The translations under genes were made by a program, and so were the position numbers. Source: Winogradskyella echinorum (GTDB taxonomy: Bacteria; Bacteroidota; Bacteroidia; Flavobacteriales; Flavobacteriaceae). Taken from it: 64,000 nucleotides of DNA. The number at the start of each line of letters is the position of its first letter. The stretch's first letter is position 1. Below the pieces are notes generated by a model, which was not told the DNA's origin, did not search any database, and was given only the letters and a program-made list of their open reading frames with translations. The stretch is from positions 682,001 to 746,000 of the forward strand of contig NZ_JACOQD010000001.1 in the NCBI RefSeq assembly GCF_014297365.1, written 5' to 3'. Positions 43,410 to 58,993 of this stretch are shown here, in pieces.

Positions 43410-43736
43410 TTATGCAGCAACAATTGTATTGGTTGCAACAACAATTTCTTCTGTTTCTTGTACTGGCTCTTCAGATTTAAAATGCTCGTAAAGTTCTTTG
43501 CATCCAAATCCTATAATAGATAATCGCTTTGATTTGGTAATAGATTCATTATGAAGTCTGGCTAAAGCCATTACACCTGCTCTATCTATACTTTCTACAC
43601 GCTCTATATCCAATAATATCTCATCTAATTTATCGAAAATATTAGCGAAATGCGAATTGAATGTTTTCAGGTTCATCTTATTAAGAGTTCCTTTAATTTG
43701 AAAACGATTGTTGTAGTTTGTAATTTGTAAATCCAT
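43410..43736 (-). CDS. STAS-domain protein (anti-sigma-antagonist-like)
   Basis: A 108-residue single STAS domain: FQIKGTLNKMNLKTFNSHFA, then ILLDIERVESIDRAGVMALA (the usual D-S/T-G site here reads S-I-D-R-A-G), then KRLSIIGFGCKELYEHF. The Ser of the phosphorylation loop is present (Ser69). An acidic tail (EEPVQETEE) is extra. STAS proteins switch partner proteins by phosphorylation. No anti-sigma kinase is in the window, so the partner may be a receiver-containing protein in the same cluster. A second STAS gene lies at 56424-56705. Confidence 0.85.
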   Translation of the reverse strand: MDLQITNYNNRFQIKGTLNKMNLKTFNSHFANIFDKLDEILLDIERVESIDRAGVMALARLHNESITKSKRLSIIGFGCKELYEHFKSEEPVQETEEIVVATNTIVAA

Positions 43737-44899: not shown

Positions 44900-45865
44900 T
44901 TATATAAATACTTCTAGTAGTTTTGCGCTTTTAGACTTAAACGCTACTGAATCTGTATTTGCAGGTACTAAAATGGTTTCTCCCATAGTTAAAGTTTCCG
45001 TTAGATTATTAACTGTTACTTCTGCTGTACCTTCAACACACATAAAAATCACAAAAGAATCTAAAGATTTATAATCTCTTTTTTGAATTGAATTAACTTC
45101 AAAAATATTTGTAGTAAAAAAATCACAATCAACTAAGTTACTTGTACTATTTGCCTCTAATTTATAATTACTCTTTCCATTAGACGCAAATAATTTGGTC
45201 GCTTTTATGGCAGCTTCTGTATGTAATTCTCTGTGAGCACCTGTTGTATCAGTTCTATCCCAATCGTACACGCGATAAGTAATATCACTTGTCTGTTGAA
45301 TTTCTGCTGCTAAAACACCTGCACCAATAGCATGTATTTTCCCAGCTGGTATAAAATAACTATCACCTTGTTCTACTTGTTCTGTATTAAAAATAGCACC
45401 AACATTTGATGCATTAATATTTCCTAACACATGTTTATCTAAGTCATTATCTTTTAAACCCAATACAATTTCGGCACCTTCATCACTATCCATTATATAC
45501 CACATTTCAGTTTTTCCGAAAGAATTGTGCTGTGCTTTTGCCATTTCATCATCTGGATGTACTTGTACAGATAAATTGGTTTTAGCATCCAAAAATTTGA
45601 TTAATAATGGAAATTCTTCTCCAAAGGTGTCAGTATTCTTTTTTCCTAAAAAATCACTTTTATGGGATTTAATAAGGTCATTTAAGGACGCTCCTTTGTA
45701 AGGTCCGTTGGCAACTACAGAAATATTGTCTTCTACACCAGAGATTTCCCAGCTTTCGCCAACATTTTTTAAATTGGTTTTTTTATTTAAAATCTTAGAA
45801 AGTTTTTCACCTCCCCAAATTTTTTCTTTTAATATAGGCGCGAATTTTATTGGATATGCTTTCAT
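44900..45865 (-). CDS. manA: Mannose-6-phosphate isomerase, class I
   Basis: A 321-residue type I phosphomannose isomerase (cupin fold) that interconverts fructose-6-phosphate and mannose-6-phosphate with zinc. Marks are YPIKFAPILKEKIWGG at the start, the metal-binding region NLSVQVHPDDEMA, KTEMWYIMD, and YFIPAGKIHAIGAGV. It is cytoplasmic. It lies 9 bp after the pseudo-glycosyltransferase gene and so belongs to the operon of the receiver-GT2 fusion. This suggests it supplies mannose-6-phosphate for GDP-mannose used by that enzyme. The link is inferred. Confidence 0.93.
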   Translation of the reverse strand: MKAYPIKFAPILKEKIWGGEKLSKILNKKTNLKNVGESWEISGVEDNISVVANGPYKGASLNDLIKSHKSDFLGKKNTDTFGEEFPLLIKFLDAKTNLSVQVHPDDEMAKAQHNSFGKTEMWYIMDSDEGAEIVLGLKDNDLDKHVLGNINASNVGAIFNTEQVEQGDSYFIPAGKIHAIGAGVLAAEIQQTSDITYRVYDWDRTDTTGAHRELHTEAAIKATKLFASNGKSNYKLEANSTSNLVDCDFFTTNIFEVNSIQKRDYKSLDSFVIFMCVEGTAEVTVNNLTETLTMGETILVPANTDSVAFKSKSAKLLEVFI

Positions 45866-45874
45866 GCTATTTGT

Positions 45875-46360
45875 TTAAATATTTCTTTGAAATTGAAGAT
45901 TTATAAAATGGTTATCTTCTATAATTTTTTTTAAATAATCTAGTAGTGAGTAGATGCTCTGAAACAAGGTTTGCTTCTTTTTTAATGAGCTAATTTTAAA
46001 ATTTAATATAGCGTTTTGATTTTCTGTTATTAGCTCAATTAAACCATTTAACCCATGTTCCTTGATATTTAAATTATTAACCGAGACATAGCCTAAATAC
46101 TTTAAGTTGAATTCATTAAACATAAATCTTGCACCTGCTTTTACCGCTGCCATGTCTGACTTAAATTTTCTCACATTAACTACAGAGACATTATTACACT
46201 CATCTCTTACATCCCGCAATAAATCATAAGTATTATCTCTACTATCATTGTTAACCAGACAGAACTCTATATTTGAAATCTGTTTAATTTGTTCAATAAA
46301 ATAAGTAGTGTCCATTTCTTTTTCATTGTTATGAAATACTATAATAATACCTGTTTTCAT
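45875..46360 (-). CDS. GT2-like pseudo-glycosyltransferase lacking the DxD motif
   Basis: A 161-residue protein that lines up with the GT2 domain of the neighbouring receiver-GT2 fusion: IIIVFHNNEKE matches VIPCYNEEER, CLVNNDSRDNTYDLL matches CFVNDGSKDKTLEVL, and YLGYVSVNNLN matches YIGFLDADLST. The metal-binding DAD is thus replaced by VNN, and the acceptor half is missing. It is therefore probably not an active glycosyltransferase. It may be a regulatory partner or a decaying duplicate. It is co-transcribed with the fusion gene (42 bp upstream) and manA (9 bp downstream). The reading frame is intact from start to stop. Confidence 0.75.
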   Translation of the reverse strand: MKTGIIIVFHNNEKEMDTTYFIEQIKQISNIEFCLVNNDSRDNTYDLLRDVRDECNNVSVVNVRKFKSDMAAVKAGARFMFNEFNLKYLGYVSVNNLNIKEHGLNGLIELITENQNAILNFKISSLKKKQTLFQSIYSLLDYLKKIIEDNHFINLQFQRNI

Positions 46361-46402: not shown

Positions 46403-47587
46403 TTAGGCTACTTTTAAGTTGTTTGAAACTTCTGTTTTTTCAGCTTGCTTTTTTCCTCCGTAAACCCAAGCTATTTGTCCTAATTGAAATATAATTTTCA
46501 CAGAATCTTTCATAGACAACTTAGAACCATCTGCATGTATCCATCGTTTTAATGGTTGCTCACATAACATTGCTTTTGCTTGTTTTAATCCGAAGTGAAT
46601 ACTCATTCTTTTAAAGATTTCTACATCAAAAATCCACTGTGTAACAAACTTTTCGCCAAAGGCAATATCAATAACATCTTTATGGAAAATTTTTGCACCA
46701 CATTGTGTGTCTTTAAAATCCATTTTTAAGATCTTTCTTATAATGAAGTTGATGGTTAAACTGATTATTTTTCGTGCAGATTCTTTAGTAATGTTCGCTC
46801 CCATTCTAGAGATACGCGATCCACTTACTATTTTAAAATCTGAAGTTTCTATAGTCTTTACTAAATCATCAAAATCTGCTAAATCTGTAGATAAATCGGC
46901 ATCTAAAAAACCGATGTAGTCTAAGTCTTCTTTTTGAGCCATATGTAACATTCCTAAACGAACCGCTTCAGCTTTTCCACCATTTTTTTCACAATCATAT
47001 ACTGTGATAAAATCTTCTCTTCCCTGTTGTAACTTATGTAAAACCTCTAAAGTTTTGTCTTTACTACCATCATTTACAAAGCACAAATGATAACCAGAAT
47101 TTTCATTAACAAAAGTCAAAAACTCATCACTTAATAAACGTTCTTCTTCATTATAACACGGAATAACAACACCAACACAACGTTGCTGAATCATTACATT
47201 ACTCTTAGCGACACTGTTTTCTGATTTTGGGACACCTATTAATCGTTTTACACGCGCACTAATTTCGTTCAAGCTTAAAGGCTTTTTCATGTAATCATCT
47301 ATACCAAGTTCAAAAGCTTGAGTGATGGTATCATCTTTAGTATTACCAGAAAGTACCATTATTGGTGTATCAGCATTTTTTGTATTTCTAATATATTTTA
47401 CCACTTCTAATCCAGAAACTCCTGGCATATTAATATCTACAATAACTAAATCTGGTTGTGTAGAATCATATAATTCTAATCCTTTAGAAGCATCGGTTTC
47501 GATGTTTACTTCGTAACCTAATTCTACCAATCTCTTTTGTAATGGAAGTAGAACTAATTGTTGGTCGTCTATGGCTAAAATTTTCAT
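46403..47587 (-). CDS. Response-regulator receiver fused to DPM1-like GT2 glycosyltransferase
   Basis: A 394-residue fusion. Residues 1-118 form a receiver domain with acidic pocket Asp7-Asp8, phospho-acceptor Asp51 (VIVDINMPG), Ser80 (VLSGN) and Lys102 (KKP). After a short linker, residues 137-375 form a GT2 domain of the dolichyl-phosphate mannose/glucose synthase kind: VIPCYNEEE, VNDGSKDKT, KNGGKAEAVRLGM, DAD at 229-231, and the acceptor-side DTQCGAKIF. No TM is evident. It would transfer a sugar (mannose or glucose) to a polyprenyl phosphate under control of phosphorylation. It is first gene of an operon with the pseudo-GT2 and manA. No histidine kinase is in the window. Confidence 0.92.
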   Translation of the reverse strand: MKILAIDDQQLVLLPLQKRLVELGYEVNIETDASKGLELYDSTQPDLVIVDINMPGVSGLEVVKYIRNTKNADTPIMVLSGNTKDDTITQAFELGIDDYMKKPLSLNEISARVKRLIGVPKSENSVAKSNVMIQQRCVGVVIPCYNEEERLLSDEFLTFVNENSGYHLCFVNDGSKDKTLEVLHKLQQGREDFITVYDCEKNGGKAEAVRLGMLHMAQKEDLDYIGFLDADLSTDLADFDDLVKTIETSDFKIVSGSRISRMGANITKESARKIISLTINFIIRKILKMDFKDTQCGAKIFHKDVIDIAFGEKFVTQWIFDVEIFKRMSIHFGLKQAKAMLCEQPLKRWIHADGSKLSMKDSVKIIFQLGQIAWVYGGKKQAEKTEVSNNLKVA

Positions 47588-47619: not shown

Positions 47620-47707
47620 CAAAAGTACTAGAGAAGAAGACCTTAAAATTTAAATTTAGCCGAACCTAATATTTAGTGTAGACGAATGGTAGATTGCTGT
47701 AGTTAAT
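47620..47707 (-). promoter_or_regulatory. Promoter with 21/22-bp direct-repeat boxes (site A), receiver-GT2 gene
   Basis: Minus-strand -7 core TACTTTTG (47620-47627) fits TAnnTTTG. Boxes on the plus strand are TTTAGCCGAA (47655), TGTAGACGAA (47677) and TGTAGTTAAT (47698), stepped 22 and 21 bp. The nearest box lies 32 bp from the TTTG. The same geometry occurs at 55060-55147 and 56817-56885. The site lies in the divergent gap with the membrane GT gene and could serve both directions. Confidence 0.65.
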
Positions 47708-47769: not shown

Positions 47770-50700
47770 ATGAAGGAAACCTCAAATAAATATTTAATTT
47801 CTGCGCTACTTTTAGGCTTGGCATTTCATGGCAGTTCCATATTCTTTACTTTGGAAACTACTTATGATGCCTTAATCCATTTATTCTTTGCAGACCACTA
47901 TGCTAATAGTTGGTTTGAACCTTGGAACTACGAGTGGTACACTGGCTTTACAGTACAGAGTTATCCTCCGTTAGTTCATCAATCCATAGGATTACTTTCT
48001 ATGGTTGGTGGTTTAAAGTTTGGAATGTTTAGTGTGGCTATAATCGCCATTATACTATTCATTACCGGAACGTATCGGTTCTCCTTATTAATGACAGGGA
48101 ATAAAACCATTGCTGGTTATGCCTCGGTTTTGGCTGTGTTTTCATCCTCGTTTGTAGAAACCTTGCATATTTTTGGTCAATTACCAAGTATCGTTGGTGT
48201 CTCTGTGTTAATGCATGCCTTGCCCGAAATTTATCTATGGTTAAAGACAGGCAAGAAATGGTATTTAGCAACTTCATTATCTCTAATTGCTGTTACCGTG
48301 ACTTCACATCATGTTACGCCAATATTTGGCATGGTATTTTTCATCTTTCCTTTAATAGGCATGGTAATAATGGACGTGTCTAGAGAGCAAGTTAACAGCA
48401 TGAAAGAAGTCACATTCAAATTGTTTCTGCATACGTTTCTTAAGCTCTTTAAACGAATTGTAAGTTTCGGAATGTTGTCTTTAGTTTTAATAATAGGCTG
48501 TATTTTTCCGTATTGGCTCAACTCTAAAGCGAACCCAATTACTCAGGTGCCAATTCCACATGGATCGCGTGACAATTTCTTAGAAATCACCTCTTCTGGT
48601 TTGGTTTTCTTTTTAATTCCTTGGGGCATTTTATTGGTATTACTTCCATACATTTTCTATAGATATTATAGCAAGCGTTATTTGTTTTTTGGGCTGTCTG
48701 TAACTATATGTTTTATTCTAGGGACAGGTGGCACAACGCCTATTCCACTAAAAATGCTAGGTGAAACCGCTTTTAATATTTTAACCTTAGACCGTTTTAC
48801 ACTTTGGGCATCAATCTTGTCCATTCCGTTGATGGGTGAGTTTACCTATCGTTTTGTTCAAGGTGATTTAAAAGAATTAATACAATCTAAATTTGGTGCT
48901 GTTTACCACAGAATTATTGGCGGAATCTTAGCAGGTTTGTTTGTCTTTATGGTTGTATTCACCATGAGCTTAAATTACTTTAGACCGTCGCAACCGCAAA
49001 AAATAGAGATGTTACCAATTGTGAATTTCTTAAATCAAGATGACCACGATAAATGGCGATTTTTAACACTTGGTTTTGGCGACCAAATGGCTTGGCTTAG
49101 TGCACAAACTAATGCTATGACTGTTGATGGAAACTATCATTCTGCAAGACGCTTACCCGAACTAACAACACGACCAATTGAACGATTAGAAAATTCAAAG
49201 TTTAAGGGTGTTGCAGGCATTGGTTCACTTCAGCAATTTTTAACCACACCAGAAAAGTACAATCTCAAGTACATCTTCTCAAACGATAAGTTTTACGACC
49301 CAATACTTTACTTCTGTGGCTGGCAACGTTTACGGCAATTAGAAAACGGAATTATGGTTTGGGAACGTCTAAACATTCCTCCTGTATCTGAAATTTTACC
49401 TAAAGAAGATGTTGCCAAGTGGTTAAAACTACATTGGGGAATTGTACCATTTTTAACCGTGTTAATTGCGTTCATTTTAAACATACAAATGCTATGGGTT
49501 AATATGCTAAAAACACGTTTTAAGCCTATACCAGATTTTTTAAAGTATTCCATTTCTTATAAAAAATTCAATAGAAATGTTTTAAGAATCACACATCTTT
49601 GGTCAGTAATTTTAGCCATCGTTGTGTTTTATGGCATTTATTTATTTTACCTAAAAAACGATTCGCAACGTAGTCCTGAAAATGCTATAATGGCTTATTA
49701 TGACGCTTTAGATTTTAAAGAATTTGTAAAAGCTCATAGCTTAATCGACCCAAGTAGTAATATTCCAATTGCACAATACATGTTAGAGATATCTGTAACT
49801 GATGGCTTATTGAGTAGTTATGCCAAAATGGATGCCATAGAAACAGAGATTACCAAGTATAATGATAGTACTGTCTCTGCAAAAGTGACAAGCCAATGGA
49901 TTACACCTTTAGAAAAAATTGAAAAAGTTGATTACAAAACACTATCTAAAATTAAAGGGAAATGGTTTTTACAACCAGATGATTTAAATAACGATTTACC
50001 ACCAGATCAACTCTATTCGGCAAACGCCACAAAATATTTTAACCAAGGAAGACGTCGTATTACAACAGAACAAACGCATCACGAAGATATTTTAAAACAA
50101 CCTGTTTTAGAAGTTATTTCAGCCAAACTAGTTCAATATGATGGTAGCTATGCAATTGTTGGCGAAGTACAAAATATAGACAATGTGCCTGCAGATGTTA
50201 TTTTAAAAGGCACTTTGTACAACGATGCTAACAAAGAACTCGCAACGTATAACGCCAAATACCATGTAAAGCATAAATTAATGCCTAAAGAATCTAGTAG
50301 TTTTAGGATTAATTTTGAAGGTATTGCCTGGTCTAAAACTAAAGATTCTATTCCCGATACTTTTAATCCAGATGAATTTACACCTGTTGAATTTGAGGAA
50401 CAACCTACCAAATTTAACTTGCAAGTTGCAGGAAATGTGTCTGGTTCTGACCTGTATAAAAATGTGGTTTTAAGTGCTATTGACATTAATGAGGAAACCA
50501 TTCAGGGTAACTTGTTTAATAGTGGCATTCAAGAAATTACCATACCTCAGCTACTAATCTCCTATTATGATGAAAACCAAAATTTGGTATGGGTTGACCA
50601 TTTATTTGTAAAAGAAGGAGTTAGACAGCAACGCAAACAAGATTTTGAATACACCATTTTGAACAATGGAAAAGTAAAAATCATCAATCATAGCATGAAA

Positions 50701-50859
50701 AACATTTTTGTAAACGGCTTACCAAATGAAGCTATCTCAAATAAAATAGTGCCAAACAGAATAATAAATCATACGAATGCGCAATTACAACCAATTGAGC
50801 ATCCTGATTTTAGTTATATTAAAATAGAAATTAACACCTATATCGGAAGTCCTAATTAA
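47770..50859 (+). CDS. Large GT-C-like membrane protein (6-pyruvoyl-tetrahydropterin synthase-related type)
   Basis: A 1029-residue membrane protein. Residues about 8-410 contain ten or more hydrophobic segments. The first loop, TYDALIHLFFADHY with Asp33, His37 and Asp42, resembles the acidic first loop of GT-C glycosyltransferases. A periplasmic part (about 420-550) follows, then TM segments near 555-575 and 615-635, and a long C-terminal extracytoplasmic part with two beta-rich domains (about 640-1029). Proteins of this build are often annotated as PTPS-related membrane proteins, without known activity. It probably uses a polyprenyl-linked sugar made by the adjacent DPM1-like enzyme. It overlaps the next gene by one base. 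Confidence 0.75.
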   Translation: MKETSNKYLISALLLGLAFHGSSIFFTLETTYDALIHLFFADHYANSWFEPWNYEWYTGFTVQSYPPLVHQSIGLLSMVGGLKFGMFSVAIIAIILFITGTYRFSLLMTGNKTIAGYASVLAVFSSSFVETLHIFGQLPSIVGVSVLMHALPEIYLWLKTGKKWYLATSLSLIAVTVTSHHVTPIFGMVFFIFPLIGMVIMDVSREQVNSMKEVTFKLFLHTFLKLFKRIVSFGMLSLVLIIGCIFPYWLNSKANPITQVPIPHGSRDNFLEITSSGLVFFLIPWGILLVLLPYIFYRYYSKRYLFFGLSVTICFILGTGGTTPIPLKMLGETAFNILTLDRFTLWASILSIPLMGEFTYRFVQGDLKELIQSKFGAVYHRIIGGILAGLFVFMVVFTMSLNYFRPSQPQKIEMLPIVNFLNQDDHDKWRFLTLGFGDQMAWLSAQTNAMTVDGNYHSARRLPELTTRPIERLENSKFKGVAGIGSLQQFLTTPEKYNLKYIFSNDKFYDPILYFCGWQRLRQLENGIMVWERLNIPPVSEILPKEDVAKWLKLHWGIVPFLTVLIAFILNIQMLWVNMLKTRFKPIPDFLKYSISYKKFNRNVLRITHLWSVILAIVVFYGIYLFYLKNDSQRSPENAIMAYYDALDFKEFVKAHSLIDPSSNIPIAQYMLEISVTDGLLSSYAKMDAIETEITKYNDSTVSAKVTSQWITPLEKIEKVDYKTLSKIKGKWFLQPDDLNNDLPPDQLYSANATKYFNQGRRRITTEQTHHEDILKQPVLEVISAKLVQYDGSYAIVGEVQNIDNVPADVILKGTLYNDANKELATYNAKYHVKHKLMPKESSSFRINFEGIAWSKTKDSIPDTFNPDEFTPVEFEEQPTKFNLQVAGNVSGSDLYKNVVLSAIDINEETIQGNLFNSGIQEITIPQLLISYYDENQNLVWVDHLFVKEGVRQQRKQDFEYTILNNGKVKIINHSMKNIFVNGLPNEAISNKIVPNRIINHTNAQLQPIEHPDFSYIKIEINTYIGSPN

Positions 50860-52076
50860 TGCAATTAAAACTAACATATTTGTTTCTTTTCGGTTTGATT
50901 TTAGTATCATCATTTGCTATGGTGCAACAAAATGAAAGTGCTACTAAAATTGAGTTGTTATCAACAGACACAAACTTTGAAGTTGGGCAAACTATAGTTT
51001 TAAAATTCTCTGCTTCTCAAAATGACAAACCACTACTCTATTGTTCTAACAGCTATGGATCCACATTAATTTCTGCCACAATAAAGAACGAAACTTTAGA
51101 GTTTCTAATTCCTGAAAATATGAGCAAAAAAACTGGAGTTGTTAATTGGAAATTATTGCATAACACCAATGCACTTTCAGGAAAATTTAGCATTCAGCCA
51201 AAAGCAGAAGTTGCTACAATGGAAACTTATATTGGTCCACCAAGTATTGAAGCTGGCGGAACAGATTATACCATGTTGGTTGTAATTCCTACAGACTCTT
51301 TAGATAATCCTGTTCCACAAAACACCTTAGTGAATGCGAAACATCAATTTTTAGATTCTGAAGAAAGTGAAGCTATTTACACCAATAATCTAATTGCATT
51401 TAAAAATATCTATTCTAAAAAAGAAAGTGGACGTATGTTAATTTCTTCTGAGAGTTTAGGAGTTAATTCTAAAGAATTTACCATTAATGTCGCTGCTGCA
51501 ATTCCAACTGATTTTACCATATCTGCTGCACGACCACATGATTACGCAGATGGTAACCAGATTACAACATTTTCGACTTCAATTATAAAAGACAAGCAAA
51601 ACAACGTGGTGAGTGACGGCACTTTTGTAACATTTTTCATCAAGAATCAAAAACAAAATATTTTAAAAACCACAGGAACAACCATTAACGGTGTTGCAAC
51701 TGCGAAAATGATCCATCCAGATTTTGCCGATGACTGGAAAATTACAGCATATGTAGATAGTATGTCTGAAAGCAATAGTATTTCGCTTAACTACAAACAA
51801 GTAATTGAAGATTTTGAAGTTGCTTTTGAAGATAACAATAGAACCATAACTATTGGCCCATTACAAAGTTTTATGCAACAAATGATTCCTGATGGATTGT
51901 ATGTAAAATTGAATATTTACAAAGACAACCAGCTGATTGACACCCTAACAAAAACTTCTTTTAATGGTTATGTGACCTTTAAATTAAAGCCAGCCATTTA
52001 CCAAGATGGAGACTATAACTTTAGTATTTCAACAGCAGGATTAACAAAAGAATTCAACTCTAAGAAACTATGGTAG
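50859..52076 (+). CDS. Exported Ig-like/macroglobulin-like protein
   Basis: A 405-residue protein with an N-terminal hydrophobic leader (FLFGLILVSSFAMV) and no lipobox Cys. The rest is beta-strand-rich and seems to form three or four Ig-like domains, for example FEVGQTIVLKFSAS, DNPVPQNTLVNAKHQF, and ADGNQITTFSTSIIKDKQNN, which resembles bacterial Ig-like (invasin/Big-1 or MG2-type) repeats. No catalytic motif was recognised. It is translationally coupled to the membrane GT gene (TAATG) and to the GH5-like gene (7-bp overlap), so it likely works with both in the envelope. Its function is unknown. Confidence 0.65.
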   Translation: MQLKLTYLFLFGLILVSSFAMVQQNESATKIELLSTDTNFEVGQTIVLKFSASQNDKPLLYCSNSYGSTLISATIKNETLEFLIPENMSKKTGVVNWKLLHNTNALSGKFSIQPKAEVATMETYIGPPSIEAGGTDYTMLVVIPTDSLDNPVPQNTLVNAKHQFLDSEESEAIYTNNLIAFKNIYSKKESGRMLISSESLGVNSKEFTINVAAAIPTDFTISAARPHDYADGNQITTFSTSIIKDKQNNVVSDGTFVTFFIKNQKQNILKTTGTTINGVATAKMIHPDFADDWKITAYVDSMSESNSISLNYKQVIEDFEVAFEDNNRTITIGPLQSFMQQMIPDGLYVKLNIYKDNQLIDTLTKTSFNGYVTFKLKPAIYQDGDYNFSISTAGLTKEFNSKKLW

Positions 52077-53584
52077 GTCCTAATAGAAACATACTACGTA
52101 CCATATTAATTGCCTCATACATTATGATTGTTGCCCTAATCATTTATGGTGTTAGCGCAGTATTCAGCTATTTAAATACAGGAGCTGATCGAAGTACTAT
52201 GCTGCATACCGAAATTCAGAAAATAGAACAATATTTGCCTAAGGTAGAATGGGAACCTATTCAAAATGAAGGTAGATCAATCGATGACCAAACCTTAAAT
52301 ACAATACAGAGCAATTATTTAGATGCTTGGTATGTAAAACAAATTGCTTACAATACCAATAAAACTGCCGGAATAAAAGATTACTACACAGATAGTGCTA
52401 GAGAGAATTTATATAGTTTCATTGAACTAAATAAAGCCGAAAACACTACAATTGAAGCAACTACTTTAAGACATAATCCAACATTAGAATTTTTTAGTGA
52501 AGACGGTCAGTTAGCTGTTATTACTGACCGAAATGTTATAGAATACAAGCGCATTTTTAAAGCCGATTCATTGGTTTTAGAAATCAAAGAAACATCAAGT
52601 TATAAAATAGTGTTTTTACTCGAAGATGGTTTTTGGAGAATTAGACATATGGTCAAAGAATTAACTGAACCAACTAATGACAATCCAAAAATAGTATCTG
52701 TTGATAGTCTAAATATTAAAGGCATTAATTACTATCCACAAGCCAATCCTTGGGATATGTTTGGAGATGCATTTTCTACAGATATCATTTCAAAAGACTT
52801 TAAAATTATTAAAGACGCAGGATTAAATTCAGTACGCCTTTTTGTACAATATGACGACTTTGGAAAAGAACATGTCCATACAGAAAAGCTAAAGAAACTT
52901 AAACAAACTTTAGACGTAGCTGAAGCATATAATTTAGGAGTGGTCTTAACCTTATTTGATTTTTATGGTGACTATTCAGTTATGAGTTGGACACTAAATC
53001 AACGTCATGCTGAAACGATTGTAGATGCCGTAAAAGACCATAATGCATTGTTAGCTTGGGATATTAAAAACGAACCCAATTTAGATTTTGAATCTAGAGG
53101 AAAAGAGAATGTCATTGCATGGTTAGATAATATGATTGATTTGGTAAAATCAGTAGACGACACTCATCCTGTAACTATTGGTTGGTCTAATACACAAAGT
53201 GCTACGATACTTAAAGACAAAGTAGATTTTGTATCGTTTCATTATTACGAAGACTTAGAAGATTTGGACGAAGCCATTAAATCCATGAAAAATGACATAC
53301 CAGATAAACCATTAGTACTTCAAGAATTTGGATTGTCATCCTACTCAGGTTTTTGGAAACCCTTTGGAGCATCAGACGAAGACCAAGCTAATTATCATAA
53401 AAAAATCCAAGAGCATATTGCAACTCATGGTTTACAATTTATGTCTTGGACACTTTACGATTTCACTGAAATACCAACAGAAGTCGTAGGTAAACTTCCG
53501 TGGCGAAAAAATGCTCAAAAACATTTTGGTTTCATAGATAAAAATGGGGCAAAAAAGGCGTCTTTTAAATACATCTCTAATTAA
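52070..53584 (+). CDS. Membrane-anchored GH5-like glycoside hydrolase
   Basis: A 504-residue protein. One N-terminal TM (about 10-34) anchors it, then residues about 45-215 form a domain with an NTF2-like look (YLDAWYVKQIAYN, IVFLLEDGFWRIRHMV), and residues about 220-500 form a GH-A barrel like GH5: GINYYPQANPWDMF, LNSVRLFVQYDDFG, acid/base Glu335 in WDIKNEPNL, HYYEDLEDLDE, nucleophile Glu419 in VLQEFGLSS. It should act in the periplasm, anchored to the inner membrane. Being last in the operon with the GT-C-like protein, it may trim or transfer a nascent glycan, as hydrolases do in other exopolysaccharide systems. The substrate is unknown. Confidence 0.82.
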   Translation: MVGPNRNILRTILIASYIMIVALIIYGVSAVFSYLNTGADRSTMLHTEIQKIEQYLPKVEWEPIQNEGRSIDDQTLNTIQSNYLDAWYVKQIAYNTNKTAGIKDYYTDSARENLYSFIELNKAENTTIEATTLRHNPTLEFFSEDGQLAVITDRNVIEYKRIFKADSLVLEIKETSSYKIVFLLEDGFWRIRHMVKELTEPTNDNPKIVSVDSLNIKGINYYPQANPWDMFGDAFSTDIISKDFKIIKDAGLNSVRLFVQYDDFGKEHVHTEKLKKLKQTLDVAEAYNLGVVLTLFDFYGDYSVMSWTLNQRHAETIVDAVKDHNALLAWDIKNEPNLDFESRGKENVIAWLDNMIDLVKSVDDTHPVTIGWSNTQSATILKDKVDFVSFHYYEDLEDLDEAIKSMKNDIPDKPLVLQEFGLSSYSGFWKPFGASDEDQANYHKKIQEHIATHGLQFMSWTLYDFTEIPTEVVGKLPWRKNAQKHFGFIDKNGAKKASFKYISN

Positions 53585-53597
53585 TGTATTACTATCG

Positions 53598-53665
53598 ATT
53601 AGAACGCAGTGAAGAATCTTTATTTTTAACCAATTTAATCCTAAAAGATTCTTCGGTTCTGCATT
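53598..53665. repeat. Interspersed palindromic repeat (ACGCAGTGAAGAATCTT type)
   Basis: AGAACGCAGT then GAAGAATCTT (53611-53620) is mirrored by AAGATTCTTC (53645-53654) then GGTTCT. This is the same dispersed-repeat family as 6720-6750. A 63-codon open frame over it (53584-53775) is an artefact of the repeat. Confidence 0.6.
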
Positions 53666-53748
53666 CATATTTATTAGAATTAGGGATTCTAATACTTAGT
53701 AGGTGTTTAATTAGTTTGGGGCAAAAAGGGTCATTTTCGATTTTAAAA

Positions 53749-53811
53749 CTAAACAGTAGTGTAGGTTCAATCTGAGTAGGCAGATTACTACTGTTTAGCT
53801 GAGTTTTTTTT
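53749..53811. terminator. Two-tier hairpin terminator between convergent genes
   Basis: CTAAACAGTAGT (53749-53760) pairs perfectly with 53787-53798. Inside is a second hairpin AATCTG (53769-53774) with CAGATT (53781-53786). A T-run follows at 53804-53811. It ends the GT-C/GH5 operon and lies 6 bp from the stop of the convergent GT4 gene. Confidence 0.75.
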
Positions 53812-53816
53812 AGCTA

Positions 53817-55022
53817 TTATGCTGTAAATACAGCAGAACGGTTAGATTTTCTTTCTATAATATTTTGAAATTCTTCTAAATACATATCTGCAATCTGTGA
53901 CATTGGGTGTGCTGTTGCAGCTTTATAATTAGTTCTAGCAAGCTCTAATCTATACCTTTCATTTATAACAATGGCTTCAATAGCATTAGCTAAGCTTTCT
54001 ACACTGGTTGGTTCAAAAAATTCACCTCTATAGCCTTCATCTTGGATAAGTAAAGCTAAATCCCCTAAATCTGGCATCACAACAGCTTTACCATAACTTC
54101 CTGCTTGGTGTAAAACTCCAGAGCTTCCAGTAGTTGAAGTGTATGGAAATACAACCACTGCACTTTCATTAAATAAGGTTGGAACTTCATCCTCTTCAAC
54201 ATAACCTGTATATCTTACATCTGGTATATGCTTATAATCTTCTTGTACTTTAGCTAAGTATCCTGGTACATTTGGGTTATCTGTTCCAGCAATTACAACT
54301 TCTAATTCTAAGTTAGTTCTCTCTCTTACAAGCGCAACAGCTTCAATCATTCCCTCTACTTTTTTATAGGTTCCAAACTTTCCGAAAGTCATAATTTTTA
54401 ATGGGCCTGAAGGAAGTGTATAATCTGGTTCTTCAGGGATTTCAAAGGTTCCGTGAGGAATTAATTTCACATTAGTTTTAAGGTATTTTAATTCTAAAAT
54501 CTCAACATATTTTTGCATTGTTACTGCCACTACATCTGCTTTTAAAATTAACTTTGTTAAGGATGTTCCAATAAACCCGTAGATTTTCTGCATTAATTTA
54601 TTAGAGGTGAAACCAGCACTTCCTAAATCAACTTCCTCAAGAATGTTGTGTAATAAAACGATGTTAGGAATCTTTTTTAGCTTACATACTAATGGTAGCA
54701 TTAAACCTAAAGCAGCTGCAATTTTCTTATCACCAAACTTCATAAACTGAAGGTTGAATAACACAGCATCTGGTTGGGTATGATTAATGGCTTTTGTTAC
54801 AGAGAACAAATTTTTGTAACTGTTGAATGACCAACATTCTTTTACGGTAATCTTGCATCCATCTTCAGTAAATTCTAAATCTTTTTTACCTTCTGTACGA
54901 TCCGTTAATAAGATTAATTCTGTAACGTCTTCCTTTTGTCTAAACTGTTTTACTAAATGGTAAGCATACTCATTTAAAGTGACTTTACTTGGAGGATATG
55001 CTGTTACAATTGCTAGTTTCAT
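53817..55022 (-). CDS. Glycosyltransferase family 4 protein
   Basis: A 401-residue GT-B-fold glycosyltransferase. The N-terminal half starts MKLAIVTAYPPSKVTLNEYA, and the C-terminal GT4 (glycosyl transferase group 1) half has KIMTFGKFGTYKKVEGMIEA, VVIAGTDN, VRYTGYVEEDEVP and the donor-binding YTSTTGSSGVLHQAGSYGKA. No signal peptide; cytoplasmic, possibly membrane-associated. It probably adds a sugar during glycan assembly. It is preceded by the direct-repeat promoter at 55060-55147 and lies downstream of the flippase gene on the same strand. Confidence 0.9.
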   Translation of the reverse strand: MKLAIVTAYPPSKVTLNEYAYHLVKQFRQKEDVTELILLTDRTEGKKDLEFTEDGCKITVKECWSFNSYKNLFSVTKAINHTQPDAVLFNLQFMKFGDKKIAAALGLMLPLVCKLKKIPNIVLLHNILEEVDLGSAGFTSNKLMQKIYGFIGTSLTKLILKADVVAVTMQKYVEILELKYLKTNVKLIPHGTFEIPEEPDYTLPSGPLKIMTFGKFGTYKKVEGMIEAVALVRERTNLELEVVIAGTDNPNVPGYLAKVQEDYKHIPDVRYTGYVEEDEVPTLFNESAVVVFPYTSTTGSSGVLHQAGSYGKAVVMPDLGDLALLIQDEGYRGEFFEPTSVESLANAIEAIVINERYRLELARTNYKAATAHPMSQIADMYLEEFQNIIERKSNRSAVFTA

Positions 55023-55059
55023 AATTTTTGGATTTTTAATGTTTTAATTAATTACAGTA

Positions 55060-55147
55060 CAAATTTGAGGTTTTAAATTCCTAATCTTTAGCTACTTTCG
55101 ATAGGACGACTTTTACTGTAGACGAGTGGAAATTTACTTTAGATTAA
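55060..55147 (-). promoter_or_regulatory. Promoter with 21-bp direct-repeat boxes (site B), GT4 gene
   Basis: Minus-strand core CAAATTTG (55060-55067; one mismatch to TAnnTTTG). Plus-strand boxes are TTTCGATAGG (55096), TGTAGACGAG (55117) and TTTAGATTAA (55138), exactly 21 bp apart. The nearest box is 33 bp from the TTTG. The last box runs into the 3' end of the flippase gene. Confidence 0.6.
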
Positions 55148-56393
55148 GCCTTTTTTGTTTTCTTGTTTCAAGCTTAAAAAAGCCTATTTGAATCACTAAT
55201 AATAAAGCCATTGCTATGATCTGCATTAATACAACTTGCTCTAAATTATCGTGATAAAAAACCACTAAAAGCATTTGCAGCATACCAAAGACACCAGAAA
55301 TAATAACTGGTATATATTTATCTAAAGACAAGTAGTAGTATGCAAATATGTTAGAGATGGCAAACATGGACGTAGCAATGGCATATTTCCATAATAAAGG
55401 CGCCATAGCTAAATATTGTTCACCAAAAAGTATGTTTATAATGAGCTCTGGTAATAGTAAACAACCTAAAACAATGATAAAGGATATACCTGCTATGTAA
55501 CCAACGTATTTAAATAAGATTGAAGCCGTCTCCTTGCCTTCTTTCTTTAATTCTACAACGGCTGGCAACAGCAACATTACAAACATCCAAGCAATGAAAT
55601 ACACTATTCTACCAATCAATGCGAGTGAAGCGTATAATCCTGCTTCGTAAGATTCAAAATAATGTTTTACTAATAGTATGTCACTGTTGTTAATAATGAT
55701 CTGTGTTAACTCATAAAAAGCCGTTAGCAAAAAGAAGTTTTTAATTTGTCTACTGTATGTAGCTTCTAAAGGTTCTGATTTTTTAAAACTAAATTGTTTG
55801 GCTTTAAAAGGAAACAATCCGAATACAAACGAGATTAAAATCCCAATGGCAATTACTGCAGACGTTTTTATATTTAATACCAAAATGATACCTAATGTTA
55901 CTAGCAATCGACTTAGCATTTCACCTTGATAGGTAATAGATAAAGATTTGTAAGCTTTCTTCCCTTGAAACGTACCTCGATTAACACTCATCAAAAAATA
56001 AAGTGGAACTCCACAACCAAAAATGACAAACATAGTTGATGATGTAGTATTAAAAACAGCCTGAAGATTTGAAGCAAACACTACAATTAGTATTCCTAAA
56101 AAAAGACCTACCCAAAATGCTTGTTTGTAAACTTTAGCAATAAAATTTTTGAATAATTCATTTTCAAACAATACCGAGAATTTTGCAGTTACTAACTGAA
56201 ACGTCATTGCAATAAATGAGAGTACCAATAAAAATGTGATGAGCACTGCTGCATCAGCAAACTGTGTTGGTCCTAAAACACGACCTAAAATAAGATTGTA
56301 TAAATAGTTACCTCCATTGACAGCCAAAACACTGATCATAAAGAGTTGCTCTGGTGTTAATTTTCTTGTTTTTAAGCTTGCTAATAATTGCAT
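55134..56393 (-). CDS. MOP-superfamily oligosaccharide flippase (Wzx-like)
   Basis: A 419-residue membrane protein with about 12 hydrophobic segments and the polysaccharide-biosynthesis/MATE-like layout (GGNYLYNLILGRVLGPTQFA near the start, VNRGTFQGKKAYKSLSITYQ in the middle). It would flip lipid-linked oligosaccharides across the inner membrane. It sits between the STAS gene (30 bp) and the GT4 gene. It is the first sign that the cluster exports a lipid-linked glycan. No Wzy polymerase or Wza was recognised. Confidence 0.85.
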   Translation of the reverse strand: MQLLASLKTRKLTPEQLFMISVLAVNGGNYLYNLILGRVLGPTQFADAAVLITFLLVLSFIAMTFQLVTAKFSVLFENELFKNFIAKVYKQAFWVGLFLGILIVVFASNLQAVFNTTSSTMFVIFGCGVPLYFLMSVNRGTFQGKKAYKSLSITYQGEMLSRLLVTLGIILVLNIKTSAVIAIGILISFVFGLFPFKAKQFSFKKSEPLEATYSRQIKNFFLLTAFYELTQIIINNSDILLVKHYFESYEAGLYASLALIGRIVYFIAWMFVMLLLPAVVELKKEGKETASILFKYVGYIAGISFIIVLGCLLLPELIINILFGEQYLAMAPLLWKYAIATSMFAISNIFAYYYLSLDKYIPVIISGVFGMLQMLLVVFYHDNLEQVVLMQIIAMALLLVIQIGFFKLETRKQKRLNLK

Positions 56394-56423
56394 GATGTCT
56401 CGTTTAAATATTAATAGAAATTG

Positions 56424-56705
56424 TTATGCAGCTATTTTTATAGTTTGCAAACTGTTGTAGATGTGTTCTGAAACGTTACCGATAATCAATAAATGTTTAT
56501 CTGTAGTTTTAGCATTAACATATAATGTCTTAATAGCGTTAATACCATTTGTATTAATTTCTTCTATGTTTCCGATATCAATTGTTAATGTATCTGATGT
56601 GTTTAATATGTTCTCAAAATACATTTGAAAGTTAGTCGCAGTGGTCGCATTTAGTGATCCTACTACTGAATATACTCCGTGATTTTCTTTAATTGTAAGT
56701 GCCAT
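56424..56705 (-). CDS. Small STAS-domain protein
   Basis: A 93-residue STAS-like domain: VYSVVGSLNATTATNFQMYF, then TLTIDIGNIEEINTNGINAI, then KHLLIIGNVSEHIYNSL. The usual phospho-Ser position is occupied by Asn or Thr (INTNG). It starts the minus-strand transcript with the flippase. Like the STAS protein at 43410-43736 it probably binds a partner protein by switchable contact. The partner is unknown. Confidence 0.8.
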   Translation of the reverse strand: MALTIKENHGVYSVVGSLNATTATNFQMYFENILNTSDTLTIDIGNIEEINTNGINAIKTLYVNAKTTDKHLLIIGNVSEHIYNSLQTIKIAA

Positions 56706-56816
56706 AATTTTGTTGTTTTTAATGGTTATTTATAATTGGCCTTTCTACGTTGAAATAAGCGCAATAGACTGCTCTTTTTTTACAAATTTCAACGCAGAAA
56801 GGGCGTTAATCTGACA

Positions 56817-56885
56817 CAAATATCTTCCGTATTTCCATGTATGTGCGTTCTATTTCGATGGATGGCAGGTTGCTGTAGATGAATG
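56817..56885 (-). promoter_or_regulatory. Promoter with 21-bp direct-repeat boxes (site C), STAS gene
   Basis: Minus-strand core GATATTTG (56817-56824; one mismatch to TAnnTTTG). Plus-strand boxes are TTTCCATGTATG (56832), TTTCGATGGATG (56853) and TGTAGATGAATG (56874), exactly 21 bp apart. The 56853 box is 33 bp from the TTTG, as at sites A and B. The site is in the divergent gap with the TPR gene and could also serve it. Confidence 0.65.
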
Positions 56886-56932
56886 AAGCAGTATACCTCC
56901 GTAACTTGCAATTAGTTAAACAAACAGAGATT

Positions 56933-58993
56933 ATGACTTTAAAATCACTTATTAATATCGGATTATTCTTTATCGTTTTTAGTGCAACGGCTCAAAACAT
57001 GAAAGAAGGTTTCACCTATTTAGAAACCGGTAAATATGCCGAAGCCGAATCGTTTTTTAATACCGTATTAAAAGACTATCCAAATAACAAAACAGCACGT
57101 TTATGTTATGGTCGTGCTATAGGACTTAATGGCAAACCCGAACAAGCCAACGCACTTTTTACGGAGTTGCTTGCAGATTACCCAAATGATTTTGAAGTAA
57201 AATTAAATTACGGAGAATCCTTATTATGGAATAGCAACTTTACTGCTGCTAAAGGTTATTACCAAGATTTAGTAAAAGAAGATCGAAAGAGTTTTGCCGC
57301 ACAGTTAGGCTATGCCAACACTTTATCTAATCTTAAAGAATACGAAACTGCTATTACCGTTGTAAATACAGCATTAGAAGTGTCACCTGGTAATCTAAAT
57401 GCATTAACCTCTAAAAAATATATCTATTTAGGTTATGCCTACCAAAACCAACAAGCACAGAACTATGATAAAGCCGAACTACTGTTAACTAATAATCTAG
57501 AATTGTTTAATGATGATAAAGACACCTTATTAAACTTAGCCAATCTTTATCTTATTTGGAATAAACTCGATGATGCCAAAGCAACATACCAAAGGTTAGC
57601 TGAGCAACCAGAACACAAAATTATAGCCCAAAACGGTTTGGCATTAGTAGAACACCTAAATGGTAAAGAAAAAAAGGCTTTAAGCATCAGTACTGAAGCT
57701 TATCAAAGTTTAACTTCCACTACAGATAAAACAACTGAGCAACAAACGACAGAACGTTATGCACAAGCATTAATCTGGAATAAGAAATATAAAGCAGCAA
57801 CTACTCTAATTGATAGTTTAGTAACAGACTACCCAAACCAAAACTGGGTTTTATCCTTACGTGCTACCTTGAATATTTATAAAAGTAATTTTAAAAAGAG
57901 CTTAAGCGATTACAACCAAATATTAGCAAACGACAGTACCTCTTTTGATGGTAACCTTGGTAAAGCAAATGTTTTAAAAGCGTTAGGTTATACAGATGAG
58001 GCTTATACCTCAGCAGAAAACACATTAAAGTTCTACGACAACCAAAAAGATGCTGTTAACTTTATTAGTAAATTAAACTATAGCTTTGCACCTTCATTAG
58101 AATCTAAGGTTTCGCACACTTATGATAATGGAGATAACAAGGCCTTTTCTACCAATAACAATGTGGTATTTCCTTTGTCTACTAAATTTGCAGTACTAGG
58201 CAATTACAATTACAGAACCACAAACAATACGGTTACTGATAATAGTGCTACATCTAGTAATCTATCTTTAGGCTTATCGTACAAACTCTTACCAAGTATT
58301 ATTTTTAAAGGAACTGCTGGTATGACTTCAGCGCAAGCAGAAACGGTTGATTACACACAACTGTTAACAGATGTGTCTTTTAATATTAAATCCTTTAAAC
58401 TACAGACTTTAGATATTGGCTACAAACGACAAATTGAAAGTTTTAATGCCGATTTACTAGATAGAGAATTGGTACAAAACAACTATTATGTAAACTATAA
58501 TTTGGGCACCAACTTTAATTTAGGCTGGTTTACGCAATTAATGCATACCTCGCAAAATGATGGCAATACCAGAAACTTATTGTTTACATCCCTTTATTAT
58601 AATCTATTACCAAAGCCATCTTTAAAAGTTGGTTTTAATTACCAATACATCACTTTTAAAGACCAAGTACCAACTATATACTTTAGCCCAGAAAAATTTA
58701 ATGCCTACGAAATATTTATTAATCTTATAAAAGACGAAGCTGTTGCCAAACCAAAAGAATGGTTCTACAATGCAACGGCTGCTTTTGGTTACCAATTTAT
58801 TGAAGGCGACCCAAAGCAAACTGCTTATAGAATACAAGCTGCATTTGGCTACAAATTCTCTGAGCGTAGCTTACTAAATGTATATGGTACGCGCAGTAAT
58901 ATTGCATCGGCAACTGCAGCTGGTTTTACCTTTACTGAAATAGGTTTACGTTTTAAGTGGCAGTTTATGAAGAAGGTTGTAATTAGAAATTAA
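56933..58993 (+). CDS. TPR protein with C-terminal outer-membrane beta-barrel
   Basis: A 686-residue protein. I start at ATG 56933 (MTLKSLINIGLFF), which begins a proper signal peptide (ending FSATAQ). The longer frame from 56879 begins within the regulatory boxes. Residues about 23-375 are TPR repeats (YAEAESFFNTVLKDYPNNKT and similar). Residues about 390-686 have alternating-strand character and end in aromatic/basic strands (FTEIGLRFKWQFMKKVVIRN), like a YaiO-type or exopolysaccharide-secretion barrel. This fits an outer-membrane export port for a polysaccharide with a periplasmic TPR scaffold (compare PgaA, AlgK/AlgE, by design only). Confidence 0.8.
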   Translation: MTLKSLINIGLFFIVFSATAQNMKEGFTYLETGKYAEAESFFNTVLKDYPNNKTARLCYGRAIGLNGKPEQANALFTELLADYPNDFEVKLNYGESLLWNSNFTAAKGYYQDLVKEDRKSFAAQLGYANTLSNLKEYETAITVVNTALEVSPGNLNALTSKKYIYLGYAYQNQQAQNYDKAELLLTNNLELFNDDKDTLLNLANLYLIWNKLDDAKATYQRLAEQPEHKIIAQNGLALVEHLNGKEKKALSISTEAYQSLTSTTDKTTEQQTTERYAQALIWNKKYKAATTLIDSLVTDYPNQNWVLSLRATLNIYKSNFKKSLSDYNQILANDSTSFDGNLGKANVLKALGYTDEAYTSAENTLKFYDNQKDAVNFISKLNYSFAPSLESKVSHTYDNGDNKAFSTNNNVVFPLSTKFAVLGNYNYRTTNNTVTDNSATSSNLSLGLSYKLLPSIIFKGTAGMTSAQAETVDYTQLLTDVSFNIKSFKLQTLDIGYKRQIESFNADLLDRELVQNNYYVNYNLGTNFNLGWFTQLMHTSQNDGNTRNLLFTSLYYNLLPKPSLKVGFNYQYITFKDQVPTIYFSPEKFNAYEIFINLIKDEAVAKPKEWFYNATAAFGYQFIEGDPKQTAYRIQAAFGYKFSERSLLNVYGTRSNIASATAAGFTFTEIGLRFKWQFMKKVVIRN

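Follow-up and report, generated by a model that had tools for sequence, protein, structure and literature searches.

Two-component systems usually reach exopolysaccharide through transcription or through c-di-GMP. The locus described here raises the question of whether a receiver domain may act directly on the sugar transferase to which it is fused, and from where such a receiver would obtain its signal. Within the window (the whole 64,000-nucleotide stretch of DNA analysed), a single unbroken frame at 46403..47587 on the minus strand, opening with ATG, encodes a receiver-GT2 fusion of 394 aa (RRGT2); the plus strand of the same interval is rich in stop codons. The receiver (residues 3–113) matched Pfam Response_reg with E 1.9e-24 and 86.4 bits (cut-off 30.2), and the transferase part (residues 140–306) matched Glycos_transf_2 (PF00535) with E 1e-21 and 78 bits (cut-off 23.3). 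The residues D7, D8, D51, S80 and K102 were found in the receiver, whose closest family matches are OmpR/PhoB-type regulators, and the DxD motif of the GT2 domain is D229-A-D231. The original prediction of a complete receiver and a complete GT2 domain within one gene is thus borne out at exactly this open reading frame. Likewise, the joining of two genes by a frameshift or an assembly error, which had been named as a way for the prediction to fail, is excluded, because the fusion recurs in 34 of the 149 family genomes searched.

The GT2 part alone, searched against chains of solved structure, returned seven distinct sequences at E ≤ 0.001 (E 1.1e-8 to 1.7e-4, covering mainly the catalytic core), by name three ArnC, three sll0501 and one archaeal dolichol-phosphate mannose synthase, which agrees with the predicted kinship to polyprenyl-phosphate sugar transferases. 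The database entries of sll0501 say glycosyltransferase; we take it to be a GtrB-type polyprenyl-phosphate transferase. RRGT2 shares with all of these the GT2 core and the order of the motifs, which we take to resemble that of ALG5/DPM1-type enzymes; the solved chains have no receiver in their names or matched ranges, whereas RRGT2 has one. GtrB and ArnC have C-terminal transmembrane helices, and DPM1-type enzymes without a membrane anchor of their own exist; hydropathy analysis of RRGT2 gave no transmembrane segment (top 19-residue value 1.12). Fold, DxD motif and nearest solved relatives therefore appear to place RRGT2 among the GT2 polyprenyl-phosphate sugar transferases, with the C-terminal transmembrane helices lacking, and its GT2 domain probably loads sugars onto membrane lipids.

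RRGT2 lies in a conserved island that, from its gene content, is probably an exopolysaccharide locus. Directly downstream on the minus strand is a 161-aa half-length GT2-like protein without a DxD (miniGT2, 45875..46360), followed by a ManA-type phosphomannose isomerase (44900..45865). Divergent from RRGT2, on the plus strand, runs the gene for a GT-C-like membrane protein of 1029 aa with eight TM-like segments (47770..50859), followed by an Ig-like protein with a hydrophobic N-terminus (50859..52076; Big_1 match below the cut-off) and a glycoside-hydrolase-like TIM barrel protein (52070..53584; PF02836). Further on are a GT4 glycosyltransferase (53817..55022), a Wzx-like flippase (55134..56393; PF13440) and a 93-aa STAS-like protein (56424..56705; identified by BLAST to other STAS-like proteins, with no Pfam scan), all on the minus strand, and a plus-strand TPR protein (56879..58993) presumed to carry a C-terminal beta-barrel and to form the export pore. 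The GT-C identity of the 1029-aa protein is weak: PF10131, presumably a GT-C family, was matched by six of ten homologues (best E 0.0043), and the window's own protein had no match. The genes at 47770–58993 (GT-C-like, Ig-like, GH, GT4, Wzx and TPR) have the look of an export system, Pel-like in layout only; PelF was not among the five NCBIfam matches of the GT4 protein, and the locus does not class as Pel. A second STAS-like protein of the window (43410–43736; 21.8 bits, just under the Pfam cut-off of 22.6) has Arg-Ala at the site of the phosphorylatable Ser that SpoIIAA-like proteins usually have.

The island recurs. Among the best 80 of 543 named loci, taken with 10-kb flanks, the GT-C-like gene was present in 80, the Ig-like and GH genes in 78 each, GT4 in 71, Wzx in 69, the half-GT2 in 61, STAS in 55, the TPR gene in 53 and ManA in 42, the distal genes being undercounted because the flanks extend only 10 kb. 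Of the neighbours that the original prediction named for checking, the GT-C gene and the flippase recur, and manA only weakly; its presence in 42 of these 80 loci makes ManA weak proof of a mannose donor. Receiver and GT2 form a single ORF in 79 of the same best 80 of 543 (two ORFs in one metagenome assembly). The divergent GT-C gene adjoins RRGT2 directly in 72, with a 123-aa lone receiver between them in six and another ORF in one. The named relatives within this best 80 of 543 confirmed include Winogradskyella, Lacinutrix, Algibacter, Kordia, Psychroserpens, Formosa, Tenacibaculum and Polaribacter; a locus titled Portibacter lacus (L086) has the same island layout, through horizontal transfer or contamination. 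One fetched stretch contained a very long ORF that arose from masked letters and was excluded.

Matches to RRGT2 at E ≤ 1e-60 were found in 41 of the 149 family genomes (its own included), 34 extending over both domains and seven over the GT2 part only. In a phylum-wide sample 12 of 395 genomes matched, 11 from the same family (its own included) and one, G301, from another family of the same class, whose RRGT2 and GT-C proteins are 84% identical to those of the window and could reflect horizontal transfer or contamination. Conservation was counted over 121 fused proteins, being the 127 distinct ones from all fetched loci less six cut by the ends of their stretches. The receiver residues are kept almost throughout (D7 121, D8 118, D51 121, S80 119 and K102 121 of 121), as are the GT2 residues D173 (119), D229 (119) and D231 (117). 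Furthermore, D98 (118/121), K101 (119/121), E108 (120/121) and R112 (118/121) are conserved, positions which we take to be those of the OmpR/PhoB-type dimer interface. Departures at D173, D229 or D231 are confined to four of the 121, those of G077, G113 and G117 and a second, truncated copy of G075. G077, G113 and G117 are the only sampled genomes in which the fusion occurs but no GT-C match reached E ≤ 1e-60; their fused proteins retain all five receiver residues despite the damaged GT2 motifs.

The 64-kb window contains no histidine kinase, as judged from a whole-genome HATPase_c search (31 matches), and this part of the original prediction stands. Its conclusion that the signal source is separate is doubtful, because a signalling module containing two putative donor kinases, an Hpt-like protein and an H-NOX lies just past the window edge, is linked to the island in most of the genomes that could be judged and has promoter boxes in common with it. 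The window ends on the right at contig position 746000, and the stretch L034 covers 11 kb further right; the module starts 2.6 kb past the edge, and the nearest HATPase_c matches lie 3.6 and 5.8 kb past it. All on the minus strand, the module comprises a LytTR response regulator, an Hpt-like protein of 105 aa, a histidine kinase of 354 aa, a FIST protein, a PAS histidine kinase of 652 aa, an H-NOX (HNOB) protein and a lone receiver. The H-NOX protein (PF07700, 136.1 bits; cut-off 25.5) adjoins a kinase with HisKA and HATPase_c, the arrangement that defines an H-NOX signalling module. Pfam gave no match for the Hpt-like protein, whose VHKxKHK motif was invariant in the seven of seven sequences aligned, and apart from the LytTR regulator no protein of the module was recognised as DNA-binding. 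The genome yielded no GGDEF protein, and c-di-GMP made by such an enzyme would thus not be expected.

H-NOX was present in 37 of the 41 genomes with a fused or receiver-less GT2 match and in 19 of the 108 others (Fisher 1.5e-16, uncorrected for relatedness; second-best matches of G135 and G140 excluded). Where both genes lie on the same contig, H-NOX is no more than 40 kb from the GT2 gene in 29 of 30 genomes and no more than 30 kb from it in 28. A FIST match was obtained in 37 genomes; among the 28 of these that were used, 20 have FIST and GT2 on one contig, at most 30 kb apart in 19. The nine omitted have lower-scoring or partial matches, and their inclusion gives 19 of 21, with G059 then far. 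FIST/NosP as an essential sensor was rejected: G032, G036, G056, G126 and G135, for example, lack FIST (G135 has only a weaker match on another contig) and retain the rest of the module next to the TPR gene (lone receiver, H-NOX, histidine kinase, Hpt-like protein and LytTR regulator). As a control, DUF4407, a neighbour on the opposite flank (at 4.7 kb in the window), lies within 30 kb in 16 of 22 genomes. H-NOX exceeds this control with p 0.03 at 40 kb and p 0.06 at 30 kb, so part of the H-NOX linkage is plain synteny. DUF4407 is linked in nine of the 19 FIST-linked genomes. Counted by island, 30 of the 38 with a GT-C gene are joined to the module, 27 of them via H-NOX distance, G005 and G123 via genes adjoining the TPR gene (histidine kinase, Hpt-like protein and LytTR) and G124 via its other contig; four are not joined (G002, G100, G138 and G144) and four were left unjudged (G048, G062, G106 and G147). 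G301, from the other family, carries both island and module (L194, L260).

A DNA box recurs in both regions. An alignment of the RRGT2/GT-C intergenic region in 79 sequences (the window and 78 of the best 80 of 543 named loci) contains a conserved block, represented in the divergent promoter region of the window by ACCATTCGTCTACAC (47676..47690, minus). Allowing up to three mismatches, this box had five matches in L034 (expected 0.17; 0 of 200 shuffles). Upstream of the module's first gene stand two of the five, with a spacing of 21 bp. In the window itself there were three matches (expected 0.88), a count reached by 7 of 100 shuffles and alone not significant. Genome-wide, a 13-base form with one mismatch gave five matches, three of them at 729–755 kb, which is the island; the same form read backwards gave nine, so only the clustering is informative. 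A weight matrix derived from the 79 sequences (at most 30 distinct sites) places a box with three mismatches (score 18.8) upstream of GT4 at 55116..55130, and two weaker boxes 21 bp apart (15.6 and 12.6) between the STAS and TPR genes at 56852..56887, all on the minus strand. A surface-type protein gene (L034:1-1545) and a small lipoprotein-like gene (L034:1756-2253), both between the TPR gene and LytTR, also carry the box.

The matrix was applied at one threshold to 300 bp upstream of genes in L034 and 70 other stretches, from related genomes, so that the trials are non-independent. Boxes were found upstream of REC136 (module) in 50 of 56 cases, SurfA (surface protein) in 16/18, GT4 in 14/17 and TPRbarrel (presumed export) in 25/31, and at lower frequency upstream of STAS (8/12), Lipo165 (3/5), STAS100 (6/11), Wzx (7/24), genes labelled RRGT2 (2/7), REC131 (1/7), RECbactransf (0/7) and DUF4407 (0/5). 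The background was 3 of 292 for six genes inside the module, 36 of 585 for other genes and 17 of 1093 for shuffled upstream regions. LytTR regulators have direct repeats about 21 bp apart before their targets, and two boxes 21–22 bp apart stood before REC136 in eight of 19 genomes tested. As the sole recognised DNA-binding protein in the module, the LytTR regulator is the candidate binder of the box. Among the genomes with unlinked islands, G138 has the box at island and module, G144 has strong boxes at the module and GT4, G100 scores 12–13.5 on the island side and 10.1, below threshold, at the module, and G002 has a box at the module and none on the exopolysaccharide side; in G140 and G071 no box was seen at the places inspected before the module or the transferase genes. 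The pattern as a whole supports the view that island and module form one regulon beyond mere neighbourhood.

The module is also found beside other genes. In six of the 19 genomes that have H-NOX and no RRGT2 call (G034, G051, G086, G102, G109 and G140), it abuts a different polysaccharide-type locus with a lone receiver, a sugar transferase with a receiver-like N-terminus and STAS (unseen in G140). Pfam was applied to the G102 transferase only, giving PF02397 at 177 bits and Response_reg at 21.5 bits, under the cut-off of 30.2; the other five were labelled by BLAST (42–58% identity to G102). In the four that were aligned (all but G034 and G109), reading by eye showed neither the acidic pair nor the Lys in the N-terminal domain, and the lone receiver of the same genomes retains D, D, D, S and K. 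This cassette fills the slot between DUF4407 and the module in G086 and G102. One PF02397 transferase whose receiver-like N-terminus is degenerate, next to a lone receiver that is intact, is at L228:12868-14067 in a flavobacterial polysaccharide-type locus. Of the remaining H-NOX-only genomes, G009, G063 and G118 have a half-GT2 protein, G079 has fragments of GT-C and GT2 where a contig ends, and the fetched stretches of seven of the 19 (G024, G049, G071, G083, G087, G090 and G131) contained no polysaccharide genes of the reference set; G057 and G066, whose stretches were not fetched, were left out. Half-GT2 proteins similar to miniGT2 adjoin the H-NOX module in G009, G063, G117 and G118, and short genes beside LytTR in G117, G063 and G118, which match RRGT2, proved on inspection to encode such half-GT2 proteins and not receivers.

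From these observations we propose, with a probability of about 0.45, that RRGT2 is the enzymatic arm of an NO-responsive phosphorelay that controls one exopolysaccharide, the second arm being transcription through LytTR. NO sensing is a known role of H-NOX in the available part of the account of Vibrio fischeri (PMC8738867), and on this the assignment of the signal is based. H-NOX, together with the FIST/NosP-like protein where present, would set the activity of the histidine kinase or kinases, and phosphate would pass from there to the lone receiver, then to the Hpt-like protein and on to two outputs. In the first, LytTR would bind the direct-repeat boxes before the module, the RRGT2/GT-C promoter, GT4, the export gene and the surface-protein gene. 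In the second, phosphorylation of D51 would cause OmpR/PhoB-type dimerisation and alter the activity or the membrane binding of the GT2 domain. This domain would make a polyprenyl-phosphate sugar which, once flipped, the GT-C-like protein would use outside to decorate the polymer. The proposal is supported by the conservation of D7, D51, K102 and the interface positions, the OmpR/PhoB-type matches of the receiver, the solved GT2 matches, the H-NOX linkage, the domains of the module with the invariant VHKxKHK, the shared box, the alternative cassettes with receiver-like transferases, the confinement of damaged GT2 motifs to the genomes without a GT-C gene and one truncated copy, and the lack of GGDEF proteins. 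It is weakened by the four unjoined islands among 38, the high regional synteny, the Hpt-like protein without a Pfam match, the seven of 19 H-NOX-only genomes with no recognised polysaccharide locus at the module, the absent or weak boxes of G002, G100, G140 and G071, and the backwards control (nine against five).

The relay might act through LytTR transcription only, with the receiver of RRGT2 answering another kinase or cue and the neighbourhood reflecting co-regulation, an account that we regard as somewhat unlikely. The receiver-less genes speak for it. All 38 family genomes with a GT-C gene have a GT2 match, receiver-bearing in 31 and receiver-less in seven, and in seven of seven such loci the receiver-less GT2 occupies the same slot. 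Four of these seven (G010, G019, G059 and G076) are linked to H-NOX, as are 25 of 34 fused ones (p 0.4, no difference), which weakens the proposed phosphorelay: the receiver is unnecessary for the island or for its linkage, transcription alone could explain the arrangement, and the receiver might hear another kinase. The promoter box likewise accounts for the association without phosphotransfer to RRGT2, and the genome has many other receivers, several in ORFs of more than 900 aa, and 31 HATPase_c matches, any of which could be the phosphodonor. Against this, RRGT2 adjoins the module in G077 and G113, two genomes in which the search gave no GT-C gene, and the other module-side loci again have receiver-like domains on a sugar transferase. 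In quick trees made without bootstrap, with long branches flagged in the GT2 tree, the fused and receiver-less states require one change in the GT2 tree. In the tree of the GT-C proteins from those islands they require five, four of them forced by starred branches; of 500 shuffles made for this second tree, 13 to 23 gave a value that low. Gain or loss of the receiver by fission in place is thereby disfavoured, and fused and receiver-less GT2 genes have apparently replaced each other within an otherwise related locus. GT2 activity would then be what the island needs, and the receiver an added control.

It is improbable that the receiver is a dimerisation or docking domain that leaves catalysis unaffected and serves, for example, to recruit the GT2 domain to a complex of Wzx, GT4 and GT-C. 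The conserved OmpR/PhoB-type interface positions, the lack of a transmembrane segment by hydropathy, for which membrane recruitment may be needed, and the 123-aa lone receiver between GT-C and RRGT2 in six of the best 80 of 543 loci would all suit such a role; docking alone, however, would require none of D7, D51 and K102, and these are kept in 121 of 121 proteins. Least probable of all, the GT2 domain would be an ordinary chain-building transferase rather than a polyprenyl-phosphate sugar synthase, with the receiver controlling chain length or amount, as the breadth of PF00535 and the largely core-limited solved matches (E 1.1e-8 to 1.7e-4) would allow, but all seven of those matches are of the polyprenyl-phosphate type (three of them, sll0501, by presumed role) and a GT-C-like neighbour, albeit of weak assignment, is present in 80 of the best 80 of 543 loci.

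Turning to known systems, the proposed phosphorelay is best compared with that of V. fischeri, where, in the portion of the account available, the H-NOX-associated kinase HahK probably controls the syp polysaccharide through SypF and its Hpt domain (PMC8738867). Both systems have an H-NOX, an adjacent kinase, an Hpt step and a polysaccharide locus, which makes HahK/SypF/syp the closest working analogy. Moreover, a STAS protein regulates the syp polysaccharide in the SypE-SypA pair, as far as the partial source goes, and the island here contains STAS too. The same portion of the account leaves a receiver-transferase fusion unmentioned (PMC8738867), whereas here there are a LytTR output and a receiver on the enzyme. 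Biofilm pathways of NosP and H-NOX, in the excerpts available, also tie NO sensors to histidine kinases and biofilm, as here. Some of these pathways run through c-di-GMP, in contrast to the window's genome with no GGDEF protein.

The original prediction was not aware of a described system of this kind, which needs correction, since a receiver-GT2 fusion has been published for methanogens: MTH_548 and its Methanobacteriaceae relatives join one or two receivers to a BcsA-like GT2 domain (PF13641) and are listed, in the part of the paper available, among metabolic enzymes under environmental control (PMC5847659). The two proteins are alike in the fusion of receiver and GT2-type domain (PMC5847659) and differ in the transferase, that of MTH_548 being PF13641, cellulose-synthase-like and archaeal, whereas RRGT2 scores 25.4 against a cut-off of 27 bits for PF13641 and fits PF00535. 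The same partial account of MTH_548 names no H-NOX island (PMC5847659), while the island of RRGT2 lies near an H-NOX. In the open-licence literature MTH_548 was the only receiver-GT precedent found, and the titles and abstract openings searched there yielded no description of a flavobacterial receiver-GT2 fusion or H-NOX island. Receiver-glycosyltransferase fusions as such were already known, and within that literature the flavobacterial fusion and its H-NOX island appear to be new.

More generally, and tentatively, flavobacteria free of diguanylate cyclase may possess a branched NO relay that controls biofilm polysaccharide on two levels, through LytTR transcription and through direct phosphorylation of the enzyme supplying the lipid-linked sugar, and that serves exchangeable cassettes, two of them with receiver or receiver-like transferases. 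If the proposed phosphorelay is correct, a receiver on a probable sugar-donor synthase would give a shorter path from gas sensing to matrix composition and would explain the coupling of NO to biofilm in a bacterium without GGDEF proteins. It would point to a way in which many marine flavobacteria may control biofilm polysaccharide with no need of c-di-GMP, the usual messenger, and it offers concrete kinase-substrate pairs for marine flavobacteria such as Winogradskyella. Several genomes carry two RRGT2-type genes close together (L195, L196, L197, L200 and L201), and in G234 and G454 one RRGT2-type copy has His at position 8.
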